This document shows, in pieces, positions 2,100 through 42,518 of a DNA stretch of 64,000 bases (the first letter of the stretch is position 1; every line of letters starts with the position of its first letter). The DNA comes from Cliona cf. orientalis (Eukaryota; Porifera; Demospongiae; Clionaida; Clionaidae), in contig OZ005693.1 of NCBI GenBank assembly GCA_963930775.1, positions 5,828,001-5,892,000 of the forward strand. The letters are read 5' to 3'. The notes beneath the pieces are model-generated. The model was not told the origin of the DNA. It made no database searches and worked only from the letters and a program-made list of their open reading frames with translations. A program made the position numbers and the translations under genes.

Positions 2100-4800
2100 A
2101 ACAGGACTATGTAAGAAAAAGTTAGCCAGTTTAAACTTGATTTGGTCATAACCAAGTCCAATGGGGCTTCCGAAGTCTGGGACTTCGACTTGGCAGTATG
2201 ACCACAACTGGAGCGGGCACCCCTTATGCACTGGATAGCTGACCGAAGTTAGTAGTGAGAAAGTGAGCTGGCAGCGTAGCCAAGACATTGTCGAGCTGTA
2301 GGGCTGATTCCATTTGGTTGCCAAGCAAGATGCGAGCCTCTTGTAGAATACAGTAGTCTCATTGGCCATTCCACCAGTTGCTGACAAAACAAGAGGAGTG
2401 AATGAGGCATGTTCAATTTCTCTTACTCGCTGTTCATATTGTCGCTTCTTTTCCACCTCATGCTTTCTGTAACATCGAGGATGTCTATTAGAGGGGGCAT
2501 GGGGATTAAAAATTAACTCGCACATCAAGAAAGGTACGTTCAAAACGACCACCCCAAAAACCATTAACAGCAATGTCTAGTCTTGCGCCATCCTGGGTGT
2601 TTGAGGAAGAACTACTTAGCACCTCACCACTAAGGGGCTGAAGATCTGGCTCAATGCACACATCATTACAAACCTCTGTAAGAAGGTTAGCTGTCAGGTC
2701 CCTGATCTCATTATGTCGAATAGAGGGAAAAACACCCCTAGGGCAGGACAGGATAAAGCGTGCTCAATTGAGAACTTTGTGCCACAGGCACAAGTTGAGG
2801 GAACTCGCAGTGGTTGCCAATTGTATCGCAGAGCCAGAGCATTCTGAAAGGCACGTTTGTGCAGTGCAAATCCAAATTCCTGGATGGGAAGGGTGGTGAG
2901 CCAAGTCGAAGCACCTTTCTCCTGGGCCAAGTCCATGGAGCGCTGTAGTGAGACAGAGAGAGATTCCCTCAGGGAGACTGCTGCCTGCATGGATTGTTCA
3001 CGCTTCATTCTTCGAACTTCATCTTTGGCTTCAACTTGCTCATATTAAAACAGTGTCACCCGAATATTCAAAAGATTGTTTGAGGATGGCGTTTTTGAGC
3101 GGATTTGAGACCCTGCATGAGGCAGAGAATTCTCTACATCTGCAACGGAAATGAGATTAATTAGAGCCATCCCACCCAATCTGGCAGGTAAGGCCAGTAA
3201 ATCACGCATTTCATCACTAGGGGGTGGTTGACCAGTGAGTGCCGGGATAAGTTTTGATCTGATAGTTGTTTCCAAAGGTTGTAGTAGTGAGCCAATGTTA
3301 CGAATGGTCCGAGTTAGATAGCACCACTTGCTAGATAGGCCATGAGTGAAAGCTGCATGGGCGGCGTGTGGTTGCGTTAAGGCAATCATTGCTAGATTAT
3401 TTAATTCTTCTGTCCATTTAGCAACCTTATTCTTCACATGTGAAATTACAAACTCTTCAGAGCCAATGGCAGCCCCTAGGTATGGCCTCCCCTCAGCAGT
3501 AACTTAGACACCTGTGTTACCAAAAGAAGCCGTAGCAGTGGTGAGATATTTACCCCGCGCGCATGCGCAAGGGGTAAAGCAATCGGTTTGTCCGTCTGTC
3601 GTTGTCGTCGTTGTTGTCGTCGTCGGCACGAAAATCGCCAGATTTCGAGTTCTAGGCGTCTGTGCGTGCTATAAGCACATCCAATCGATAGATATCGATG
3701 AAAAACTGGTTTGTACAGGCTTCGAATTGCTCAAAAAGGCTTACTAGTGCTACAAATCATGCATTTTCTGTTCAACATGCCTGTGGTTTATCGACCACAC
3801 CCACTCTTTTAGCATGCTGATGCGACTGCGCATGCTCAAGCTCGGTGTTGGAAAGGGTCGTCAGGACATGAAACAGCTCTGCTGTAGCTCAGAGTGTTGC
3901 CGCAGTACTACGCTACAGTGGCTACAGAGCGCGCGGGGTATGTGCTCTACAGAGCTCTAGTTTTCTTTAGTGATTAGCCAAGTTTTGGTGGCATTAGGAA
4001 AATATCCAAATTTAGGGCCATGTGAACCCAACTGGCTCCACCAATCACGTAATCTGTCAATACTTCCTGCTGCAGAAGCATCGTCTGCATACCATACCTG
4101 ATTAACATCATCTATATGACAGCGTAGATGCTAATGCATACATGGGCATCGCAAGAGGGTCACCCCTGAGTGGTACCCTCCCTTGAATAGAGTACATCAC
4201 CATCAATAAACAGCTCAGTTGGTGCCCTATAGCAGTTAATAAGGGCTGTGGCTAGCGAAGGACATAATCGACGGATATTGTGTAGAGCACAGAGACAATT
4301 TAGAGAGTTAAACGCATTACTTGCATCTACCAAAAGAATGGCTTCGGTCTCCTCTTGTTGGAACAATGAATCAACGGCATGTACAGCAGCCTCAATACCA
4401 GAGATCTGGCCGGCACAGAGCTGCAGTGAACCAGCTGCTTCCTGTATGTCCACTTTAGTAGCAGCCAGGATAGCTTTGGCAATTATCCGTCTGGCAGTGT
4501 CACCAATCCCAATCGGGCACACACCTGGATTCTTATCCAGAGCAATAACTTAAAGGCGGCAAGCCAAGAATGGAGCAATAGCTGAGGGATCGACAAAGGT
4601 TGTGCAAAGACGCTTAGCAGAAATGGCCAGAGAAGGACACAAATCAACAGAGGCGGATTTGAATGAGGTACATAGTCTTCTCCAGATAGGTGCATCAAGG
4701 CAGGATGGTCCAGCTGCACCAGTTGTCTTCAGAGCAGCTGATCTAATCATAGAAGCATCAATTAGGATCACGGTACGTAACGATTTCCGTTTACATACAT
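2100..4800 (-). mobile_element. Degenerate non-LTR-like reverse-transcriptase element
   Basis: The minus strand carries pieces of one long ORF broken by stops and frameshifts. From 4771 downwards: SASVDLCPSLAISAKRL, then [17 protein letters not shown], the palm motif [31 protein letters not shown] and the catalytic YADD (4080-4091). After the interruption at about 3515-3960 it resumes with GRPYLGAAIGSEEFV and continues to about 2580 through ARLGGMALINL and a Cys/His-containing stretch, CACGTKFSIEHALSCPALG. A last piece at 2150-2585 encodes GFWGGRFERTFLDV and ATGGMANETTVFYKRLAS. This order (RT palm, thumb, C-terminal CxC-H-C) fits a family common in marine invertebrates. It is inactive: several stops, at least two frameshifts and one insertion. 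I could not find its 5' start; 4800-4900 gives no recognisable coding sequence. Confidence 0.8.
3515..3960 (-). mobile_element. Short non-autonomous TIR element inserted in the RT element
   Basis: About 445 bp interrupts the RT reading frame between LITKEN and NTGV. One end carries TACCCCGCGCGCATGCGC and the other GCGCGGGGTATGTGCTCTAC, giving short imperfect inverted termini built on TACCCCG. A GTC-rich microsatellite lies at 3599-3625. A related copy in reverse orientation lies at 18073-18705, and decayed pieces near 31900-32025, 38990-39345 and 41790-42190. No protein is encoded. Because it splits the RT ORF it is younger than that element. Confidence 0.7.
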
Positions 4801-6667: not shown

Positions 6668-7006
6668 GTGGCCGAATTCTTAGTCAAGTCACGGTGTCTC
6701 CAGCTCGAATTTCGGCCTTTAATTGATCACTACTGGTGGAATCTGGGGAGGAGACTACATAACTATATAGACTGGATGAGGATAAAGTATCCGAGCGGTC
6801 TTGCTGCGCCGCGCGAAATCACATCCGCTGTGCTCGGGGAGAACGTTCGAACTATGATACGCGATAGCACCCCTGAAAATGGGTACATAACGATTTTGCC
6901 TGAGGATTATCCGCTGGCTATACGTACTTCCGGTTCTACAGGCAAGCTATATAATGCACGCATCTGGGTCATCGAGGCAAACCAGGCGTTGAAATCGTCC
7001 AAATAA
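6668..7006 (+). other. Unassigned 112-codon open frame upstream of the monooxygenase
   Basis: An uninterrupted frame ends 16 bp before the monooxygenase start codon. Its product begins MAEFLVKSRCLQLEFRP and resembles no family I know. It could be 5' UTR of the following gene or decayed transposon sequence. The region is higher in GC and CpG than its surroundings, which fits a promoter/UTR. No function is proposed. Confidence 0.2.
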
Positions 7007-7022
7007 CACTCAAAGTTCAACT

Positions 7023-10000
7023 ATGCGACGAATTACAGCAAACGTGCTCGTTTTATTTGCTGCAGCTTCGCAGCTCGCCACGTGCTCCCACAACCTGGAT
7101 GAGGAATATCGTTTCTCTGCCATTCTGGACGATGGCTACACGCTGCACTGGAACTTTGACCTGGAAGAGCAGACAATTAGCTTTGCAGTGAATGTCAGCA
7201 CCACAGGCTGGGTTGGTTTTGGTCTGTCTCCAAATGGACAGATGCCTCAATCTGATGTTATCATAGGATGGGTGGACAATGATGGAAACACTCAATTTCA
7301 TGTAAGGCTATTATGCATGCATGCAAACAGCTACCATGATTCTGTAACAAACTTAGCTCGGTTATAATTATGTTGGCTGCCATAGTACATGTATATGTAC
7401 TGCACTGTAGGATCGCTTCGCTATTGATCGCTTCCTTCCCCCTGTTGATGAAAGTCAAGACTGGTTCTTGGTCAGCGGTGAAGAGGAGAATGGTTACACT
7501 GTCTTGGAGTTCACCAGGAACCTCACCACTTGTGATGACAATGATCTGGATATTAAGGTTTGCAATAATATTGTAACTATATTATGATACATCATTGTAT
7601 ATTCATAGCATAATAATTATTATATAGTGTGTTTTTTTATTATTAATAGGCTGACACTGCAAGACTAATCTGGGCTTATCATTCTCAAGACCCTGTGCTG
7701 AATCTGGTTGACCTCAGCAGCTTGCAGCACGAGAATCTCGGCTCCATAAGCCTCAACCTACTTGGTGAAAGTATTGCAGATATCGAAACTGAAGAGGATG
7801 GATACTTTATTATTCGCAATGAGCATGTAAGCTAAATACATGTATGGCCTGGAGATGCAACCACCAGTGATTATAATAGCTTTCATTGTGATTATCATCA
7901 GGTGCTCATTCCAAACAAAGACACTACGTACTGGTGCTCAGTTCATTCTCTACCCGATGAAGTACTTCTGCAAAAGAAGTACATTTTCAAGGTATTTTAG
8001 AGTATACCTATTTATTGTTAATAACATAATTACCGTATTCATACGCATGATCTAATTAGCGCAAGAAAATTAACGTTCTAGGATTTTATCTTAATAGAAC
8101 GCGTGACGACCTTTACCAGAAAACCGCGCTAAATTTAAAATCGTTTTTTAGCAATAGCATAAACATGGTATCATGCATTATTAATATATTATTATGCAGT
8201 TCAGCCCCGTGTTTTCTGAGCCATCAGCACAGTATGTTCATCACAGTGCTGTCTACCTTTGCTCTGATTTGAATGCCACTCATGTTGGAGCCAGTAGTGA
8301 ATGTGCTGATTCTCACATTGATATTGCTCTATGCCGTGGAAATCTGGCTCTCCTTGGTGTATGGGCAGTAGGAGGTGATGTAAGTATTCCAATAGCAAGC
8401 AACAAAATTAAAATACGATAATTACTTATACGTACATACTGCTTGTGATTGTTTATATTATCAAATATGCAGGGATTCACATATCCTCAAGACGTGGCCT
8501 ATCCTATTGGAGGAGAGGGAACTCCACGATATGTTGTTCTAGAAGTCCATTACAATAATCCAGCTGAGGTTTCTGGTGAGCTGTAATATACTGTCTTGCA
8601 TAGAGGTAGTCCATGATTGCCAGCTATACACATTTAGTGATTCAAAAGTGCTGAAAAAGTGCTTAATTTAGCTAATACAGGATTTCGCACACTCACGCAT
8701 GCATTAATTCACGTGGATGAATATTATGTGATTCGAAAGTATTGGGTTCAGTATAAAAGAACTACCTATTCGCTAACAAGCACAGGATTTCACACATCCA
8801 TCATTGTGTGATCCTTGCAGGTATCAATGATAGCTTTGGCCTCCTGTTCACCTACACCAACGAACCCCCGAGGCACAATGCTGCCACACTTTTAGTTGGA
8901 CAAGTCCACAACAACCACTTTATCATACCACCACACAGAGAGGACTACACTATTACTGGAATCTGTCCTGCAAGTTGCACCAACACTGTAAGCATTTCAG
9001 AATAGGAGTTACCGGTAGTGCATGCACTCCTGGAGGTACAAGAATCCATGTATGCACACTTGCAGTTTCTCCCACCTGAAGGTATCAAAGTATTTGGAAG
9101 TATGCTCCATACTCACATACTAGGTGAATCAAAAATTAATGTAAGGATACATAGCTACAATGTCATGATCATGATTGTATGTAGGCCATGGACTTGTAGT
9201 TCAACACTTAAGAGAGAACAAGCAATGTGGAGTGCTGGAGGAATTGGAACCCATCGACGAAAACAGGAGATACGATTTTAACTATCAACAATTCAACTAC
9301 TTAAACAAAGAAGTCCAAGTTTTGCCCGTAAGCATAAGATTCTTTGGTCAAGTGATGGCAGTTATTTACACTACTGCATACTTAAGGGTGATACTATCCA
9401 ACTAAAATGCTTCTATCAGTCAACTGGAAGTAGCAATGTGACCCTGGTAAGTTACATTATCGTGGCAAACTAGTACACACCTACAATTGTACCATGCAGG
9501 GAGGTGAAGGCACTCGAGAGGAAATGTGCTATGCATTTCTACTGTACTATCCTGAAGTCGATCTCAGTTTCTGCTACAGTCAACCACCATCTAATGCTTT
9601 CAGTGATTTCACTGAGCAACATATTCAGTAAGAATAGTAATAGTATACTGTATAATAATATTGTACACACTAGACTACTCGTGTACATACTATAAATTAA
9701 TATCAGAGCACCACATCGTGAAGACTTCTACCAGAGCTTACTCTCTTATGATTCCCAAACTGCTCAGTCTATCCTGGACCAGGTGGAGTGGACAGATGAT
9801 GCCAGCTCTATGGTGGGGACACTCCTAAACACACAGTTTGTGGCAAGTTGCACCCACAGAAGTGTAAGTTTTTCAAGTTTACTTGATGTCGAGTTCACAC
9901 ATTAACTTGTCAATTTTTGCTGTACCCAACATTATGTGTTTGTTACCTTGTGTTTCTCTTTATTGTGCTGACAGGATCATGCCAACACAGTGAATGTTGA

Positions 10001-17800: not shown

Positions 17801-20800
17801 TATGACCTACAGATTCAAGCAAGTGACTCACTTGATTCCAGTAACATCATTACCAATCCTGACCTGCTGATTCCAAAACTCACTACCAACGCGATCTAAA
17901 CAAATGAAATCAGGACACCAGAACATGTAGCAATAATTCTTGTTAACTGAAAGTTTACATACATCCTTTTCCATAGTTGACAGCTGGCATAGCTCTATCT
18001 ATCAACATCCTATCACATAATTATACAATCAGGATAAATAGCATCTAACAATACATTTCTGCATTCCAATAACTAGAGCTCTGTAGAGCACATACCCCGT
18101 GCGCACATTGCAGTATGCATGGCTATGAACTTCAGAAAATTAGTGAAAGTGCTGCTTAATTGTACGTAGCTACTGGAGGTCCCGGTGACAAAAAGCACTC
18201 TCTCTGCACCAGATCTAGACTGATACTTCCAATATTATTTTTGTTGAAAATTAATAGTATAGCCGTCTTACATTATGTTTTGGTTCCATAGGGCTGCAGA
18301 TTTCAGCTCCATCAGCGGATGTGGATAGACTATTGTATTTTATGAGCGTTATTAATATCGACGATCTTTACCAGTCATATTCTTGGCTATTTAGTTGTGC
18401 GCATGAGCACAAAACACAATGGACATGCATTATGCATTGAGTAGGCACTGTCGACAGGTGTGGCTACGTTAACCAACAAAAAGGCACTATTTGTGACGCC
18501 CCTGGACCGTGTCCATCGATTTGACACACACTGAAGCTAGTTTTTCGCCAAATTCGATTGATTCGTTGTGCTTACAAATCGCTTAGATGCCTACATCTCG
18601 AGATATGGCGATTTTTGTGCTCATGACGACAACGACGACGACAACAACGACAACGACACAACCGATTGATTACTTTACCCCTTGCGCATGCGTGCGGGGT
18701 AATAACTAATACTGCAAGCATGTACAGTACATTGACATGACATACCTCTCTTCCTGTATGGCTCTGAACTGGTCTGGTTGGTTCATGGCCAGTGCTTCAG
18801 GAGCTGACCCCAGCTTACCTGCACAACAAAGAATTTAAGAAATCACTTACTACAAATACATGTATTCAGGCTTTCTTAGCCTACTATGCATAAAAAAGTA
18901 ACAAAAAAATAGCATACTCGACACCACAACATACATATGAGTCAGTGTTCTCACAATGTTGCTACGCATGCTTCTTGACTCACTGGCAAGGTACTGTTGC
19001 TGTGACTTTCTCATTTCCATGCTTTTGTTCCAGTAATCCAAGGCGTGTTCCTCTCGAGGCTACACAAGACCAGTAACAGGAGCATGTGACTGTACAGCGA
19101 TATATAACTATTACTTACAATTATTGTTTTCTCGTAAGTCATGGCTGTGCGTTGAGGTGATACAGCCTCGTCTGCATGGAGCACTGGAGGGTGGGACATG
19201 AACCCACTGATGGAAGGCACCTGAACAAGAAATACTATTAGAGGATATACCACGACAAATTAGTCTAAGAGTACTGTCTTACTCGGCCAGTGTTTTTGAG
19301 TTGAGTGGCATAGTCATGAGTGGGTCCCAGTACACTGTGAGCTAGGAATGTCCCCTGCTTGTCAAATCTAGGACCAACCTCTGTGCTACCTGCATTCATT
19401 ATAGTAACACTACATAAATAAAATAATGTCAGAATGTTTACAGAATGCTAGGCACCACTGTGGCTCATATATCGTTCAAAAATGAGATCGCTAGACCCAC
19501 TAAGAATAGAATTAATGATAATGAAAGTCCTTTGAGCTTTCATGTGTATACACCAAGGGAGTTGTTGCTGTGTATCCTTAGAATTTTATTGCCACTTTCC
19601 TGTAATTTGATTGATCAATAGGAGGTAACTAAGTAGCTTAGTTACTTGTAGGTTTTACCATACTCTTAGTTACTTGTAAACTTTACTTAGTTACTAGCAG
19701 AATTTGGCCAATAGGATCCATGGTATTATGAGAGCTCCAAGGCAAATAGCTTTACTACTATAGCAACAGTTGTAAAACTGTAAATAACTTAGCTCACCTC
19801 AGCCAATGGGATCCACAGTATTTAGCATCCCTCTGTCCCCTTAGTAACACCCTTGCTACATTCGGGTGTCACAACTCGTGGCCATCAGGATGCTAAATAC
19901 TGTAGATCCCTTGTCCTCAGTGTCTAACTATTATTTATAATTTTGGCTTTTCCTACTGTTATAATAGATGAACAATAACAATTACATATTAGAATATGTA
20001 TACTGTACAGCATCAACAGTCCAGTAGTAAGAAACTTTCATCATGGTGATTCAGCTGTTTAAATTTATTTTCTAATAGATAATATAGGAAATGATTTTAG
20101 TCTAGTAGATAATGTCATCTGCTTTACAGCTAACTACAACCTAAGTGTCCAGCAGCTTTACATCTATACTTGGGGGGGGGGGGGGGGGGAACATGCTCCC
20201 AAAGCCCCCACCACCCCCCTCAGTGTTGTAAATATGTGAAAATTATACACATTATAAACGACCCCATGGGGATTTATCTGAAATATTTTTGAACACAAGT
20301 TACGTACATGGTTGTACAATGTACATGTAGCTGCTTATAGTAATCCTGTATAGGGTGGGAGTCATTATTTAACGGCTTGTATAAAGGCAATAGAAACACA
20401 TGCAGTTGAAGGAAATCTAGGAAACTACATATACATAATACAACTCACTATACTACAGCAAAGAGCAAAGCAGGGACATGTCTACAATAGCAGCTCTAGG
20501 CATTGCTCTACTAGTTTCACTGGTAAGTTATCAAATATTATAATTAATTTTTAATCTTCAAACACTTCAAAAACAGGCAAAGGCAAACTATGAATTTACT
20601 ATTCGGTTCTATGAGTTTCGGAATCCTCTAGGCCTTCAATGTGGTGCATGCGAGAGTGGCGGGGCACCTGTCTGCTGTGATGATGTGCAACGCACCATGG
20701 ACTGCATTCAAGAAGCACCCTTCACATGTGATACCAGGTTCAGGTTTCAGCTGAGGCCATATGGGTCAACAGTGGAGACAGCACCCAGCGGAGGATTCCC

Positions 20801-23800
20801 CTACTTCACTCCAAGCAACGGAGGCAACAGTGATACATTCAACCAAGGGCCTGGTGGATTTCTGGCACTACCAAACCCTTTCACTATCACTAGTCAACAA
20901 CAATGGACTGTACGTAGTTTGTCAGAGGCCAAACATTACCAACTATATGCACATATAGAGAGATACTATTCTTCACTAGCCAAGTCTTCTAGCCTCTAGG
21001 ACTATAGAAAAGCTAGGAATAGTGATGAGGCAATAATTTCTATCTGCAGGGAAAAATACAGTTATTCATTGATGCTCTAGATAGGGCAGTGGCACACCGC
21101 AGTGAGATGGAGGCCATTATCAACAGATTCCCAGTCAACCTCCAGCTGGAACTCGGAGCAAGCTTCACTGACAGAAGCACCTACACTGGCATCTACAACA
21201 CATCAGGTCAAGGGTTTGATATGAGCTTCAGGGTTCAATGTACTGAGAACTACTATGGATCCATGTGCACTGAATACTGTGAAACCATACTAGGAGTCTA
21301 TGAAGGAAAAGCCGTCTGTGTCCAAAATTCCACCACACCCTGTGAGACGCCCAGCCAAGCAATAGTACCAGCAACAGCAGTCCGCTATGAAGGTCAATCC
21401 ATGGATATTATAGGCTACATACATAGTCTATAATATCTATGGTCAGTTTAACAAAAATTTAATAATACCGTGATATTTCCATAATTGAAGAATTCTTATC
21501 CACTACATCCCTGGGAGCAATTTACTTTTCTGAAATAAGCAATATTTTCCCAGTAAGAGTAAAACTTGGCACAGAGGTTGAATATGGAAGTTTGTCATCT
21601 GTTTTCATTTTATGCCACTTTACGATTACGCAACATTGCAAGTATGCTACTTATATACATAGTGACCCTTTACCATAACAATGGAGCTGCGTACTAGGGA
21701 TGTGGTAATCATTTCATTATTATTATAATTATTAGGCTCTTTCACCTGGGCAATTGCTCTTGGAATTCTCTTTGCTGTATCAGTGATTATTAATATCATC
21801 CTAGTACTTATGGTTGTAGTTCAACAATACCATTCAAAGCAGAAAAGCATTCAACCAGGTAATTAAGATCTGTTAGATTTGCAAACATACCATAAAACAC
21901 GGGCATAAGAGATAGCGGGGCTGGGGGCATCTCTAGAGAGAAGCCACACCCAAATATGTTCACAATGTCAAAGGTTATAAATGCTTACCCTTACCTAGCT
22001 ACAAAGATATTACATACAGCAATTAAACTAGTTAGCCTTTCTGTAGAGAAATAGTTACATGTAACTTTCTTTATTTTCAATCAGTTTCACAGTAAAGTTA
22101 CGTACAGTAAATGTTTGTCAGGTTGTTTCATACCTTCTTGATTACATTTTTGAATTCAGTTTGTTACTAAAGGTCATAATAATTATTATGTATATTTTGG
22201 CTTAGAATGCACCAGAAGTGATCTCAACCCTCCCTGGAACATGACTAATAATGATATATACAAAATAAAGGAGGCAATATAAATTCTTCATATACTCCAG
22301 CCTCATCAGACTAACTTCCACGAGATACTCAATTATATTGACTCCCACACACAATCAAAGCTACGTAGACTTCACCATGTGTACATGAACGTAGTTACTT
22401 TATTAGCATTGCAAAGTGTGTGCTTTATTATAAAAGAGCTTACAGGTTTTTTTCTCTACAAATAAAATTTTGTAATGTAATTATGAAGAGTGTGCTCTTC
22501 ATTGCTATTGGACATGTACTATGGACCTGGTATTACTTGCACACTGAATGTGACTACTGCTGTGCATATATATACAGCTCACAACTTCGAAGGGAGATAG
22601 GGGAAGAGTCCTATGAGAAATGGCTTAATATAGATTTTAGTACCACTCTAGCCTGGATGCTGGACAATACAACAGACAGCCCACTGATACGGTTGGCTAT
22701 GGCTCCAGCCATGACTAAAGCACACCAAATTTTCTTGAGATTAGTATGCCAGTAATTGATGCACATGATAAGGCATGAGCACGCTTCACTTACTCACTCC
22801 TTGTACAGACTATTATTATGGCTTATTTATATTATAAGAAAAGTGATCATCTGAAAGTATTTTTCGTTATAATAATATAATATAGCATAATTACATAAGG
22901 TCATAGCAGATCATAAATTTTATTTGTCGAGGTTTCACTGCATGCATGCATACACAAAGCGTGATGTGAATGTGAAATTACCCAGTGGTTTAGTGGCAGC
23001 AACTGCAGTCCCTGGAGGAAGAGGGTGGAGTACAGCAACTCTATGTTGGAAAATAAACTCATTGGTTAGTTCTATACAGAAACCTCAAAGACTGCTCTAC
23101 CTCTTATGCTTTGGTCTAGGCTGCTGTTGAGGGTGGGTGGAGTGGATTCTCCTGACCACCACCTTCCTAGTGTGGGGAGGCCTCTCAGCACTGGGAGGAT
23201 GAGGAGCATGAATCTGCATACAGGGTAACATGTATATGGACATTATGGCTTTATCTAGATACACAGTTGACACAAAGGATTGTGAGTGCTGCATAACTAA
23301 ACTAGTTTGCATGCTATAGCATAGCTACATTATCATACATGTAACTACATTATGTGTCTGTAGATCCTATGACTCAACAACCATTACCTACACACAGTAT
23401 ACTGAGCTGCACAGTATTATTGTGAGACTGAATACAGAGGAGTATAGTGTAGACTACTTAAAAGTTAAGAAGATCAGCATACTTTGTAATGAAGACTCTG
23501 GCTTGCGAGTAGAGACACATATACTGGCATTGCTTTGGGCATAATAGGTAATTTTGTTATGCTGGCACAGTGCTGGCATAATAGGATCACACTATAAGGT
23601 AGCCAGGTAATCGATTAAGTATAATAATAGTACTTTCTAACGTTTAGTGAGCAATGTAGTTTAAGTTTTTGAACGGATTAGTACGAAAAATATCAAAAAT
23701 TGAGAGAAATCGAGAGCATAATAGGTATGAAACGATAAGCATAATAGGCTTGGAGTTGGGAATTAGAGCATGGCATAATAGGAACTTTAAAAAGCATGTG

Positions 23801-35552: not shown

Positions 35553-38500
35553 ATGGCCAATCATGTAGATGATGCCTTGAAACCCTTCATAATTCAAGAG
35601 GTGGAAGGACTGGATGGCGAGGACTTTCGACCTGAAGGCCAAGGAGCCTACGGCGTCGTCTTTAAAGTGAAAGTGGAAGGTCTACCTTGCATCGCGAAGA
35701 GAATGCACGAGATACTCGTCAGTCGCGTGTCCAGTGAAGAGCAACGAACCCTCTTGGACAAGTTTAAACAAGAATGCATCGTACTTAGCAGGCTGAGGCA
35801 TCCTAACATTGTACATTTCGTGGGGGTTCACTATGGAAAAACAAAGGGCGACTTCTCCTTGATCATGGAAAACCTCAGTTGTGATTTGGGCGAATTTTTG
35901 CACAGACATCCAAATATGCCCCTCCCTTCAAAACTGTCGGTATTACTGGACGTGTCATATGGCTTGCTCTACCTGCACAATCACTCTCCACAAGTAATTC
36001 ACAGAGATCTCTCCGTTCAAAATGTTCTCATGACCACGGAAGGACAAGCCAAGATTGCTGATCTCGGCGTAGCCAAGCTCCTTGATGCAAAAATGCAAGC
36101 CACCATGACACACACACGGAATCCAGGCAACTACCACTATATGCCCCCTGAGGCTCAGCTCGAGTGTGCTCAGTGCACGACCAAGCTCGATATCTTCTCC
36201 TTTGGTCACTTATCACTCTACACTGTTAATCAAGAACCACCTGAAGTGTTTGAAGTGCCCTTAAAGGCTGAGATGATTGAAGAAGGTAGAATTCAGATCA
36301 AGAAGCGAAAGAAGTGTCTTGACAGGATGGGTGCTAGCCACTGTCTCCATCCTTTGGTGATGGAGTGTCTCTGTGATAAGCCGGAGGATAGACCAACCAC
36401 CCTTCAACTCAACTCAAGCCTAAAGAAGCTTTATACTCAACATCCAAAGAGGAGTCATCACATTATGCAGATTTGTGAGGTAATAATAATAATATTATTA
36501 TGTGGATGAGTAGGGCAGCGACTGGCCGATGCTTGTACACACTCTACATTACATTTCTTGATCACCCAATTGACACTACAGTCAGTGTATTATACGACCA
36601 TAATAATATCAGCTTCTTCTAGGAATTCCCCAGAATAGGCTCTGAGGGTTTATTAAGCACCCTGTTAAGTAGCCCCAAGTCAAACAGGGTGGCCCATCCT
36701 AATGCAGAGCTGCATGCGTATTAAATTTTGCATACTGACATACAGAAGGCCTGGTACTCACTGCATACGCATGCACTATATTTTCCATACTAATGTACCA
36801 TAAAAGTGTCCATACATAAATCCCTAATGTGCTGACAAGTGAAACGGTCCATATATAATACGGGATGATCTCCTTATCTTTGCACTAGTACTTGCGCTAA
36901 ACGTGTGCTCATGCTGTTTGGAGGCCTTCATCTATCAATTGCAACATGGCAACATCTCTTGAATTACCTTGAAATCTCGCTCGAAACTCTAACTGTCCAA
37001 TTACCATTTCTTGGTACGTTGAGCATGAGGAATTAAGGTCAAGCGGCAATTGAGTATACTACAGTAGCTAGGCAGTATCCGTACATAATTGCAAAATCTG
37101 CATAATCACGGTGCATGCGCATGCAGTGGATACCAGGCCTTCTCTCCCCCTCCCCCCAATCAGAAGGTCCGCGAATGAGGCTAGTACATGTATGTACAAT
37201 GTCGTATAACACTCAAATTCTTACTTGGGATGTCAAATGGGATGGATGGCCCAAATTTGCAAGGCTAATAGCAACCCAGGAAAGTGCACATACACATGCA
37301 CATGTATGGACACAGTGCCCTGCATGCGGCAAGATTATTGCAAACTGCCATACAACCCCTGCGTGTGTAGAGTGTAGTGTGAATCAGCCCACAACTTTCA
37401 ACATGCCCTGCTAAAAGTAAACACAGGATGTGGTGTACCAATCCGGTACCGACATGTACAATTCATACAATGTCATGCATGTGACATCATATGTAGTCAA
37501 AGACCCATCTGCAATAAAACTAGACATTGTCTCATTAGCTGGTGTGTTTTTTTTTGCCATCTCACAGCTAGTTCCTTTTGCCTTCGTTCGCATTTGCTAA
37601 GCCAATTAAAGGATTGATCATCAATATTGATAGCAATTGTAATTGAATTTCCTCATGTACGCGAATGTGCTCAGCAAATGCATGTCACATGTAGTTTCTG
37701 TATTTGGAATGTGAAGACAAGGTGCTACTAGTAGTATACAATATCTATTGTGTAAACACACCCACTGAATTTTAGGCAATAGAGCCCGGTAGTGTGAAAG
37801 GATGTCATGTTGATTTGAGCTCCCAGCTGGAAGAAGCTAACCAGACCACTGCCAATCAGAAGCAAAGACTCGAGGAACGAGCTTGTTCTATTGAAACACA
37901 GGTAGCATTACGAGTTGGAATTAAGATAAAATGGGTACTACGTGCTTACATGTACTTACTGCTTGTTTTTGCTATTATTAATGTTATAGGAAACTTCTTT
38001 ATATGAAATTCAGCAGGCTAATGACAACTTGCAACAGGAGCTTAACAATGCACAAGCACAAATAGAAATACTTCAAGCTCAGGTAAGTACAATGTGTTGT
38101 ATGTAAATGTTTCATTGAGTTCTGTGTGTGAACTGTGATTGAGAGGTAGCCTCACACCCTGGTCCTGGGTATGATGCTACAGTGAGAGTGTACATGTATG
38201 TGTACGTATCTGCATGTGTTATAGCTACAGTGTAGTCCACCTAATTCGAATCCGCATACCACAAATTTTCTTCTAATTCGAAGTCTTTCCAATTCCCCAC
38301 ATAGAGCTAATACATAAATTCGAAATGCCACTTTCGCTTAATTAGAACACACACACGGTCTAGTATACGGACATGCACATATAGTATACGGAACATAGAT
38401 CACGTGAGCACCACATGGCTGCAGCTGAGTGCAGCTGCACTAGGCAGCAGTAGCTATATCTAGCAGTATCAGGCTCTAAACTGTTAAAAGAAAGCTAGAA

Positions 38501-41500
38501 ATACCGTATAGCGGGAAATTTTCGAGGGAGAAAACTTTCGCGGATTGGTAGGAAAGAAGCATTTCGCGGAGAAAACTTTCGTGGAATGTTAAACTGGTCG
38601 CATAATGGGTGTGGCATGCCTAGAATTTCGTGGAGAAAACTTTCGCGGATGGCTGAAAAATCGTGAAATTTGTGAAAGTTTTCTCCCTCGAAAGTTTCCC
38701 GCTATACGGTAGTAGATAGAGTGGACAGTCTGCCTCCAGAGAAGAAGAGAAAGGTTGTTGCATCCGAATATGTAAAGATTATTATTATGTGTGGTAGCTG
38801 TTATCCCTTTAATTCAAAATTATCATTCATATGGGCAAAATTCGAATTAAGTGGATGTTGCTGTAATTCAAATTTTCCTAAATTATTTGGGTAGATTTGT
38901 AAATTCGAATTAAGTGGACTACACTGTATAATATTATGTGTTTAAACAAGTGTGTGTGGGTGTGTTTTACTGAATTAAAGGTATATACTTTTGTTTTGCT
39001 GTGATATCAGAGCTTTCTAGAGCATAAACCCAACTTGCCCATAATCTTGATCTCCGTATACCAGGCCAATCAGGGGCATGTGCATGAACCACATGGATTG
39101 CAGTAGGCATGCATGGTCAATAGACATGGCTACAATGGCCAAAATGCAGACATTTGGGACATTTGTGGGTCATGTCAAACGATTTGAAGCTTACTGAATC
39201 CAGTTTTGGCCAAATCTGACAGATTTGTTGTGCTATTGACTCACTCAGGTGACTGGATCTTGAGATCTGGCGATGTTGTGCTCACGGTGACAGCAATGAC
39301 AATAGAACCAATCATTTTACTCTTTGTGTGCATGCACACAAGATAATGAATGTTTTATCCTTCAGGTGTCTATCTACAAGGATGACTTTGAAGAGGAGAG
39401 GAGAGATCGTGAAAAGGTGCAGAGCAAACTAATTGACTTGGAGATGAAAGAATCTGAGCTAAAAGAACGCATCGGCAAGCAACATGATGAGGTATGGCAT
39501 GTACTACCATAAGATCAATTGTGAGGGGATGGGCAGCCCTAAAAATCAAGTCCATGCAGCATGAAAAGGAGCCTCCTGATAAGACGTACAAGCTTATTGT
39601 AGTAGATTGTTTTTCAAGAATGCCCAGAAGAATTGCAGCTTATCATTGACGAAGTAGATTGTTGGTAGCATAAGAGGTCTGGCCAAGACAGTATCCACCA
39701 ACACTGACTCACCCTCACAGGTAGTGATGATACTCTGCAATATTAGGCACGATGAAATATTAGGGAGACCTATAACTAGAGCACATACGTAGAATGAGTA
39801 AGGACTTACTCACCTCTCTCCTACATTATTTATTTTAATTTGAGTATGCACTGGATTAAAGCTTGATTATAGATCAACATGCCTTGGGTATGATAAAATA
39901 CATATAATTAAATTTTGTGTAGATGAAGAAAATGAAAAAGAAAGGAAGAGTAAAGTGGATGAAGAAAAAGTCAGACAAGATGGAGAATATTCCAGATACA
40001 ATGGAGAGAATCACAGAACTTGAGATGTCCCTCAAAGATTATGAACATGACAAAGAGGTATATAATATTATGCTAGCATGGCAAGCCCTGATGGTGCATA
40101 AGACTAGTTCTGTGGCTGGTTGGCACATTTCTTTTCAATCTTATCTCAAAGTGTAGTCCTCATAAACCATCCATTTGAGTTACTGTCAACAGCACAGTGA
40201 CTGTGAAGTATCGGCATGATAAAAGCAGGCTGTTCTTTCCCTTGATTAGCGACCGTACTTGAGCAAGGCCGATCAAAATCAATAGTAGCTGCTGCTAATG
40301 AAGATCACATAGGTACTTTACCTGGGCACTCTTTCGTGTCTAATAATGCTTCGAATATTGGCCCATTCCTCAGTCTAGGTTCTATGTATGGTGCACTGCC
40401 CATGGACCCCTTTTCACAAATGTACGGTAATACATGTAACTCCTCGCATAACATGGTTGAAAATCAACTTACATGTAGGATTCAAAGTGTTTGTTCTACA
40501 TGTACAAGCCACATTAAAGTTTGTCATTAAATTTTGACCAATTCTTGTCAGTCTCAGTGATAGCGAGCACCACATGCAGTCGACTCACTCTGGCTCTATC
40601 ACTCTTTAGCAAATGCTTAGTTGGTAGGAATAGGATGTTGCCAGCTGGCGTATTTTCATGCATGTCAAGTTACTACCGTACTTAATCTAATACTACGTAT
40701 GGAAAAAAATAATTTCAATTTTGAAAAACGCATGGTTTTCTGGTAAAGGTCGTCAATCGCTCCATAATATATTATATATACGTTATGAGAATTCGTAAAT
40801 GCTAATTTCTTACGTTAGATTGGATCATACGTTGTATTCGATTAACTATGGTATCACCATAATTCATGGGGATTATAAGTGCCTCAGGGAGGTCAATAGT
40901 ATTATTTATGCTATCACAGTGCATGCATAGCTAATGCATCATGCACCAAGCTTGTCATGCAGAAACATCATGACATTATTAACTCTCTTGAACATGCTAT
41001 AGGACTCTGCTGTTAAATTTTAGCCAACGAGCACTTTGTTGAACAAATCACTTACCTGCAGAAATTGGCTAGGAAGAACAGAGATCTGATGAATGAAGTT
41101 GACATGTTGCAAGATCTAGTGAAGAAACTAGGACTTGATGCACAAAGGGCTCATCAGCAACAACTTGAAGATCTTAGTCCTCAAGAACTGGCTATGCAGG
41201 AAGGCATGGATGACCCCTTTCAACCTTTTGACCCCTACATTTCCCTTGATACTATTTTGGAAGTTCAACCTGGAAATGATCGCTCTCCTCCAGTCAGAGC
41301 TGATGGTGCAGTTGGAGGGAGAGATCAAGAACAGGTGGAGCCAGGGTGTATCCTACCGTCTAGTCTGAATGTGAGTAGGCCATACTGATTGCCTTTTACT
41401 GTCAATATTATGCACCCTGAATATCTGAAGGAATTTGACATAGGGAGTCTGAAAAGAAGTGACAGTGGAAGTATACAATTCAAAAAGGAATACTATGTAA

Positions 41501-42518
41501 GCCGTTTTAGGATAATATGGTTTAGCAACTGATTAAAACGAGAGCTCTCTCGAGTACCATGCATATGACGTTAGTACTAGTTGAACAAGCAGGCAACGAC
41601 AATACAATGTTATAGCTAGCATAGCAGTATTGTTCGGCTAACAGCAACAACCATGCGGGTGGCTGTTTTATGAAACTTTGCACTGCAGTGCTGACATCAA
41701 GTGAGTACGACTATGGTGCAAAATGCTCAGTGCAAGTGCACTGAGCCTAAGTACTATTGTTGTTCACATGAATATGTTGACTGTGGCATGCACAGCAAGG
41801 GGTAAAGGCAATCAGGTTCTTCGTGAAATTGGCAATGATCGACAATGAAACATGCTCATTGTGTAGTACCTCTGCGTTGAACAGGCATGGTAGACAACCG
41901 AGCAAGTAGAGGCATAGAACTATATAATCTACAGTAGAGGACGACACTTCACCGCCAGAAAGGCTTTTGCAAACTGCAAGCTCAAGACACGAGGCTTACC
42001 ATCAGCAAATGATGCCAAAACAGGCGAACAAAATGTTTTCAGCGGAATCCACGCAATACATGCATTTGGAATGCCATAAGGAATCGTATAACACCGCAGT
42101 TTGGACTTGCAAACAAGGTATGTAGCAGCTAGCTTGGTAACCGACAGACACACAGAACGACTACCGTAACCCTCGCACATGCGCCGAAGGTTAATTATCA
42201 AAAAAACTGGCTTCAGTATTCAATATGTGCAGGGTATAATAATATGCAGTCTAGTTTGTCGGTTTGGCAGTCTGCTGCAAAGAATTAATATCAATAACTT
42301 TGGTGATACACAAACGTGCTGGCAGCTTGTAATTACCGAAACTACCAAGCTCCGAATTAATGCTAACATTTCTGCATTATGATATTATACTCAATCCCAT
42401 GATCTCGTTAACTTTATTGGTGGGTGCACTGCAGGATTTGAGATATGAAAATGAACAACTAAAGGCAAGATTGAAGAAGTATGAAGAAACAACCAACACT
42501 TCTGAGAGCCAGACATAA
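35553..42518 (+). CDS. TKL/RIPK-like protein kinase joined to a UBAN (NEMO/ABIN-type) coiled coil
   Basis: Seven exons, 35553-36479, 37776-37901, 37990-38082, 39366-39491, 39923-40057, 41032-41370 and 42435-42518, all joined in phase 0, give 609 aa. Residues 25-295 are a kinase: glycine loop GQGAYGVV (30-37), Lys49 in CIAKRM, HRD at 150-152 followed by LSVQN, DLG instead of DFG at 170-172, and MPPEA at 197-201. All catalytic residues are present. Residues 310-440 are coiled coil. Exon 4 encodes VSIYKDDFEEERRDREKVQ, which matches the UBAN ubiquitin-binding signature (DFxxER) of NEMO, ABIN/TNIP and optineurin. Exon 5 is Lys-rich; exon 6 has a leucine-zipper stretch, then an acidic Pro-rich linker; exon 7 adds a coiled coil ending in a stop. 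No zinc finger or death domain is seen. The exon 6 acceptor (after 41031) is the weakest splice site. A gene break between the kinase and coiled coil is not ruled out, but phase and spacing support one gene. Confidence 0.75.
38226..38929. mobile_element. 700-bp TIR element in the kinase-UBAN intron 3
   Basis: TACAGTGTAGTCCACCTAAT onward (38226) is mirrored by TTCGAATTAAGTGGACTACA ending at 38929. Repeats of the TTCGAATT type occur through the element. It encodes no protein. Confidence 0.8.
38502..38711. mobile_element. 206-bp MITE nested in the preceding element
   Basis: CCGTATAGCGGGAAATTTTC onward (38504) and its imperfect reverse complement ending at 38709 form TIRs of about 40 bp, flanked by TA on both sides. 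The interior repeats TTTCGCGGA-type words. Confidence 0.85.
38990..39345 (+). mobile_element. Decayed copy of the TACCCCG-terminated family
   Basis: The block shares an ordered series of words with 18073-18705 read in reverse: GTCAATAGACATGGCTACA, ATCTTGAGATCTGGCGATGT and TGCTCACGGTGACAGCAATG, ending near GTGTGCATGCACAC. The terminal inverted repeats are eroded. Confidence 0.5.

Follow-up and report, generated by a model that had tools for sequence, protein, structure and literature searches.

A predicted fusion of a protein kinase with a UBAN-type ubiquitin-reader coil, and its paralogues, in the sponge Cliona cf. orientalis

On the plus strand of a 64-kb stretch of contig OZ005693.1 from the sponge Cliona cf. 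orientalis (hereafter the window, i.e., the whole stretch of DNA analysed), a protein kinase domain is followed by a coiled coil with a UBAN, the ubiquitin-binding segment found in NEMO, TNIP and optineurin. Does this locus encode both parts on a single polypeptide, as a sequence-only reading had proposed, or do two genes merely lie side by side? As dimers, UBAN coils recognize ubiquitin chains linked through Met1 or Lys63. To our knowledge, the kinase and the ubiquitin reader of the known UBAN systems reside on separate proteins, and hence the effect of chain binding itself on the kinase is hard to tell. We consider it likely, with a probability of about 0.64, that the locus is one gene encoding a 609-aa fusion with an N-terminal TKL-type kinase followed by a NEMO/TNIP/optineurin-type coil with UBAN, and that it belongs to a family of at least three genes, located in the window, at 5.113 Mb of contig C6 and at 2.506 Mb of contig C16.

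The gene model, rebuilt from the window DNA, has seven exons and 609 codons, with every internal junction in phase 0 and every intron of the GT..AG type. Together with the Pfam matches, it bears out the earlier description of an intact single-exon kinase followed by six further exons, all in phase 0. The kinase domain comprises residues 29–289 and matches PF07714 with E 1.3e-34; PF00069 matches as well (E 1.5e-31), and each score is well above its Pfam cut-off. The residues of the Gly-rich loop (Gly29, Gly31, Gly34), the VAIK-type lysine (Lys49), the alpha-C glutamate (Glu74), the HRD motif (150–152) and Asn157 are present and invariant in the window kinase and its C6 and C16 paralogues, as are DLG 170–172 (Asp170, Gly172), the counterpart of DFG, and PPE 198–200, the counterpart of APE. 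The catalytic residue set is apparently complete, and the kinase is predicted to be intact. Folding of the kinase exon from its sequence alone was uninformative on the fold, with a mean predicted local distance difference test score (pLDDT) of 36.5 and a predicted template modelling score (pTM) of 0.25.

In a PDB sequence search, the best solved-structure match of the kinase is TNNI3K (E 2.3e-25, residues 29–230), which we take to be a TKL kinase, followed by CDK2, a plant LysM receptor kinase, CTR1, and roco4; the window kinase itself looks TKL-like. No RIPK or IKK chain was found in the best 60 of 2163 PDB matches, and since near-identical CDK2 chains crowd this list, the ranking is an incomplete test of RIPK/IKK identity. 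This ranking gives no support for a specific tie to RIPK or IKK kinases, and the link to NF-kappaB-type signaling raised in the sequence-only reading is only a possibility.

The best Pfam family over residues 331–416 is PF16516 (CC2-LZ), with an E-value of 2.6e-7 and 31.5 bits. Exon 4, on which the case for a UBAN had been made to depend, matched the CC2-LZ profile on its own in the genome search (26.3 bits, E 0.00145). The core DFEEERRDRE, previously noticed as a DFxxER pattern, is located at 39384, and across all six frames the window has a single occurrence of the motif [DE]F..ER..R[ED]. When the 300-residue C-terminal part was compared with solved structures by phmmer, the outcome supported this assignment: all 19 matches at E <= 0.1 are NEMO, TNIP1, TNIP2 or optineurin, the best of them being TNIP2 (5h07, E 2.8e-5).

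A trivial explanation, that the UBAN likeness is a chance resemblance of a charged coiled coil, deserves next to no credence. The sequence does abound in E, K and R, and there are weak matches in Pfam to further coiled-coil families (GAS, Fez1). However, no other coiled coil is found among the 19 PDB matches, and the position of the splice acceptor is common to all 17 UBAN exons of this genome that were checked, as detailed below. Further, a hidden Markov model (HMM) built from 14 UBAN loci without a linked kinase (two of them identical) assigns 36.9 bits to window exon 4, versus at most 11.9 bits for 900 shuffles and at most 4.1 bits for five other coil exons of the window gene. The same model gives 45.3 bits for the C6 exon and 44.5 bits for the C16 exon.

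The residues with known roles in ubiquitin binding appear to be retained. In optineurin, linear diubiquitin or its linkage is contacted by D474, E478, R479 and R482 (PMC4999505), and mutations of D311, E315 and R319 in NEMO weaken ubiquitin binding (PMC11854354). By spacing and by the NEMO alignment from the PDB search, the corresponding positions of DFEEERRDRE are occupied by D, E, R and R, and the predicted ubiquitin-contact residues are conserved in the window UBAN.

The strongest support for a fusion comes from the paralogues. A genome search with the kinase exon yielded 128 scored matches (127 non-self) of 1067 first-look candidates, and ranks 1 and 2 among the 127 non-self matches listed are C6:5113326-5114255 (65% identity) and C16:2506010-2506933 (47%). 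Among the 61 listed kinase matches on UBAN-bearing contigs, only these two and the window kinase are followed on their own strand by a UBAN exon at a distance of no more than 10 kb. The distance from the end of the kinase exon to the start of the UBAN exon is 2887 nt in the window, 2686 nt in C6 and 2438 nt in C16, so that order, strand and spacing are alike in all three loci. As a guide rather than a test, the chance of two randomly placed links falling on ranks 1 and 2 among the 127 listed is about 1 in 8,000. In all three loci, a phase-0 donor is situated a few codons past the kinase domain. Two queries, the window coil (E 1.4e-6) and CC2-LZ (E 6.9e-4), each identified the C6 UBAN exon; it is 126 nt long with phase-0 borders, both as in the window, and the following exon aligns too. 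In the alignments of the window to C6 and C16, no part of the coil is conserved better than the core, and the C16 core YKADFEEERRDRE matches the window core YKDDFEEERRDRE at 12 of 13 residues. Thus, the placement of kinase and UBAN on one predicted polypeptide, proposed from the window alone, agrees with the Pfam and PDB searches and with two paralogues, and it is not one isolated fusion, as three kinase-linked UBAN loci are present. No UBAN motif was detected within 1.5 kb of 30 kinase loci; this distance is uninformative and the test carries no weight, since the UBAN exons of the three linked loci lie 2.4–2.9 kb away.

The observations that weigh against a family of fusion genes concern the Pfam score of the coil, the first intron, the C16 locus, and the junction of exons 5 and 6. 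Firstly, the CC2-LZ score falls about 4 bits short of the Pfam gathering score (35.3). In the profile search of the 609-aa model proposed in the sequence-only reading, the kinase thus scores above the cut-off, and the UBAN has a significant E-value with a score below it. This shortfall is compatible with a real fusion whose UBAN has lost its capacity to read ubiquitin and provides the kinase with nothing more than a dimerizing coil. A C-terminal zinc finger, which characterizes NEMO and optineurin, is also absent from the 609-aa window model, whereas fingers are encoded downstream of the UBAN in C16 and several C6 loci. The pattern C..C.{12}H.{3,5}[CH] has no occurrence in any frame of the window, and the finger spacing of the paralogues, with 14 residues before the histidine, lies outside this pattern. 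Retention of the residues named as ubiquitin contacts and the preferential conservation of the core between paralogues argue against a loss of ubiquitin reading, which we regard as quite improbable.

Secondly, the kinase is contained whole in one exon, its frame continues for 9 codons beyond the donor and then reaches a stop, and an AATAAA signal is located within intron 1 at 37513, so that a kinase-only transcript is possible. These features would suit two adjacent genes, one for a kinase in a single exon and one for a UBAN protein, copied together as a block without ever sharing a transcript; also in line with this arrangement, a listed kinase lies within 10 kb upstream of only three UBAN loci among 17 checked plus two unchecked. 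Several lines of evidence make such a pair of genes unlikely, though it merits serious attention. The phase-0 donor ends the kinase exon in all three paralogues, and the phase fits at every junction. In the window, exons 2–4 lack an ATG ahead of the UBAN core, and no open extension with an ATG precedes them: exons 2 and 3 are directly preceded by an in-frame stop, and exon 4 by 60 nt of an open, ATG-less frame. Hence, the coil could not start translation alone without an unseen first exon. The frames past the kinase donor differ between the window (VIIIILLCG) and C6 (VCSFSHRHC), and the likeness of the two introns is limited to a 22-nt TAA/ATT simple repeat that is differently placed in each, whereas the alignment of the two kinase exons extends for hundreds of bases; thus, no common kinase-only C terminus is seen. 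Kinase and UBAN probably form one gene, in which we infer splicing of exon 1 to exon 2.

Thirdly, C16 is the weakest link of the family. Its UBAN was found through the window-coil match alone, at E 0.40, and was neither among the 19 CC2-LZ genome matches at E <= 1 nor recovered by hmmscan of the C16 coil. The spliced aligner picked a donor other than the phase-0 one. When 28 kinase domains of the genome were placed in a tree, the kinases of the window and C6 were grouped with support of 99/98, and the C16 kinase is left without a resolved position and is not united with them; a single clade of all three fused kinases is neither supported nor excluded by this tree.

Finally, the exon 5–6 junction is uncertain. 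The modelled exon 6 acceptor is the AG at 41030–41031, and a better-looking AG at 41022–41023, 8 nt upstream, would shift the frame and lead to a stop after 21 codons. The kinase–UBAN claim is unaffected, as this junction lies after the UBAN core. The first 40 residues of exon 6 have a heptad power equalled in 5 of 2000 shuffles, and the counterpart of this exon in the C6 paralogue is weak (ILVTKNEQLTMEI). The counterpart of exon 3 in the C6 paralogue, identified by the spliced aligner, is a 35-codon exon, and the alignment partner of exon 5 reads IKKLKGKRKWKR...YALEKE. The exons of the window gene are listed below.

Exons of the predicted kinase–UBAN gene in the window, with the evidence for each
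Exon	Content	Position	Strand	Evidence
1	whole protein kinase domain in one exon; ATG start; donor GTAATA	35553..36479	+	PF07714, PF00069
2	helical linker; 42 codons; no ATG	37776..37901	+	splice sites and phase; no in-frame open extension upstream
3	coiled coil running into UBAN; 31 codons; no ATG	37990..38082	+	within CC2-LZ match, residues 331-416
4	UBAN core IYKDDFEEERRDREK	39366..39491	+	CC2-LZ match below cut-off; PDB matches; C6 exon; genome UBAN HMM
5	lysine-rich helix after UBAN	39923..40057	+	aligned to next exon of the C6 paralogue
6	coiled coil, then acidic proline-bearing tail; acceptor uncertain	41032..41370	+	heptad power; weak C6 counterpart
7	short C-terminal helix and stop	42435..42518	+	splice acceptor and stop

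Intron 3 additionally contains a 210-bp element (38502–38711) with 45-nt terminal inverted repeats that are 91% complementary. Forty places in the genome, itself included, were scored of 1778 first-look candidates, all of them full-length or nearly so; the other copies are 96–97% identical, as in a young family of the type of miniature inverted-repeat transposable elements.

By identity, the C16 kinase is nearer to kinases of C2 (54–56%) and to one kinase of C15 (51%); the genome UBAN searches detected no UBAN for these C2 and C15 kinases. Downstream of the C16 UBAN exon, on the same strand, a proline-rich frame ends in a C-x2-C-x14-H-x3-C finger three residues before the stop, and this finger may be carried by the same transcript as the C16 UBAN. 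Since C16 has its own zinc finger and a kinase nearer to the unlinked C2 and C15 kinases, two origins of the fusion are conceivable, as is a single origin with losses. The region C2:10.94–10.985 Mb contains clustered open frames of 591–1101 aa (L043, L044, L047-L050, L052, L053, L055, L057), each with two tandem kinase domains, and their first domains, 54–56% identical to the C16 fused kinase, are among its nearest listed relatives.

The genome searches with the window coil and with CC2-LZ identified 21 distinct loci, 17 of which were kept by the core motif, the acceptor position not being used; the remaining four (L019, L030, L037, L038) have no UBAN core and were dropped before introns were counted. 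In all 17 loci checked, a splice acceptor AG is located exactly three codons ahead of the UBAN tyrosine. With two more C6 loci, which were left unchecked, the family comprises up to 19 loci. Twelve of them, including the two unchecked, are clustered within about 0.32 Mb at C6:5.11–5.44 Mb (L015-L017, L020, L022, L031-L036, L071). As judged from these matches, this genome contains an expanded family of putative ubiquitin readers. Six finger loci on C6 have the C-x2-C-x14-H-x3-C spacing and end 3 to 16 residues before the stop; four are situated 1.6–3.5 kb downstream of a UBAN exon and one at 6.3 kb, and the remaining one has no UBAN match nearby among the matches listed. Among the 10 finger loci considered, L078 and L080 fail the finger pattern, and L081 looks unrelated. 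The C-x2-C-x14-H-x3-C finger resembles that of TAX1BP1 only weakly (whole-sequence E 0.018, not significant per domain).

The closest solved UBAN, that of TNIP2/ABIN2 (5h07), resembles the window coil over 57 residues, both reading YKDDF..ER.DRE..QS....LE.K; the TNIP2 polypeptide presumably has no kinase domain. In NEMO (IKK-gamma) with IKK-alpha/beta, as in the window protein, a UBAN coil is tied to a kinase. However, the kinase of the NEMO system is a partner bound via the N-terminal region of NEMO, whereas in the window protein a TKL-like kinase forms the N terminus itself. The IKK-binding N-terminal region of NEMO (PF11577) has no match above the cut-off in the genome, whose exons were searched one by one, and the same search gave no match above the cut-off for TBK1_ULD (PF18396). 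Optineurin and TBK1 likewise work together as reader and kinase, but they are separate proteins, in contrast to the window fusion. TNNI3K joins its kinase to ankyrin repeats, not to a ubiquitin reader. A 2026 review of NF-kappaB in holozoans refers to IKK phosphorylation sites in sponge NF-kappaB, and a text search of it found no mention of a fusion (PMC13042239). In agreement with the initial impression that no such architecture had been described, the top-ranked results from the open-access literature contain no report of a kinase–UBAN fusion. Thus, the parts are known, and their combination appears to be new as judged from these results.

How might such a protein work? The coiled coil would form a parallel dimer with a hold on ubiquitin chains linked via Met1 or Lys63, and the attached kinases would thereby be paired and concentrated at ubiquitin-marked sites. 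The gathered kinases could then phosphorylate each other and nearby ubiquitinated cargo, so that one chain would accomplish a task for which IKK relies on NEMO, and TBK1 on optineurin, as a separate partner. Dimer-driven activation of the kinase is plausible.

A few other features were observed elsewhere in the window. The interval 20547–20996 (+) weakly matches MNNL, the N-terminal domain of Notch ligands, with E 3e-4 and slightly short of the cut-off, and the next frame, 21029–21430, has no Pfam match at E <= 0.001; the former may be part of a Delta-like gene. A DOMON domain is encoded at 6993–7364 (+) with E 8.6e-17. Two open frames on the minus strand, 4160–4549 and 3045–3503, presumably resemble retrotransposon reverse transcriptase, and the former has no Pfam match at E <= 0.001.

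We tentatively suggest, at rather less than even odds, that single-chain kinases gated by ubiquitin evolved as a set in this lineage, with the logic of IKK–NEMO or TBK1–optineurin realized in cis. The fusion would have arisen once, followed by losses in sister kinases, or twice, within the burst of up to 19 UBAN readers, as a parallel solution to ubiquitin-driven immune signaling in an early-branching animal. If the kinase and the reader do share one chain, this natural fusion would offer a minimal one-protein system for studying what Met1 or Lys63 chains do to a kinase. The expanded UBAN family merits study in its own right. As to the assembly of NF-kappaB-type and autophagy kinase modules in early animals, the fusion suggests that kinase and reader may have been coupled in cis as well as in trans.

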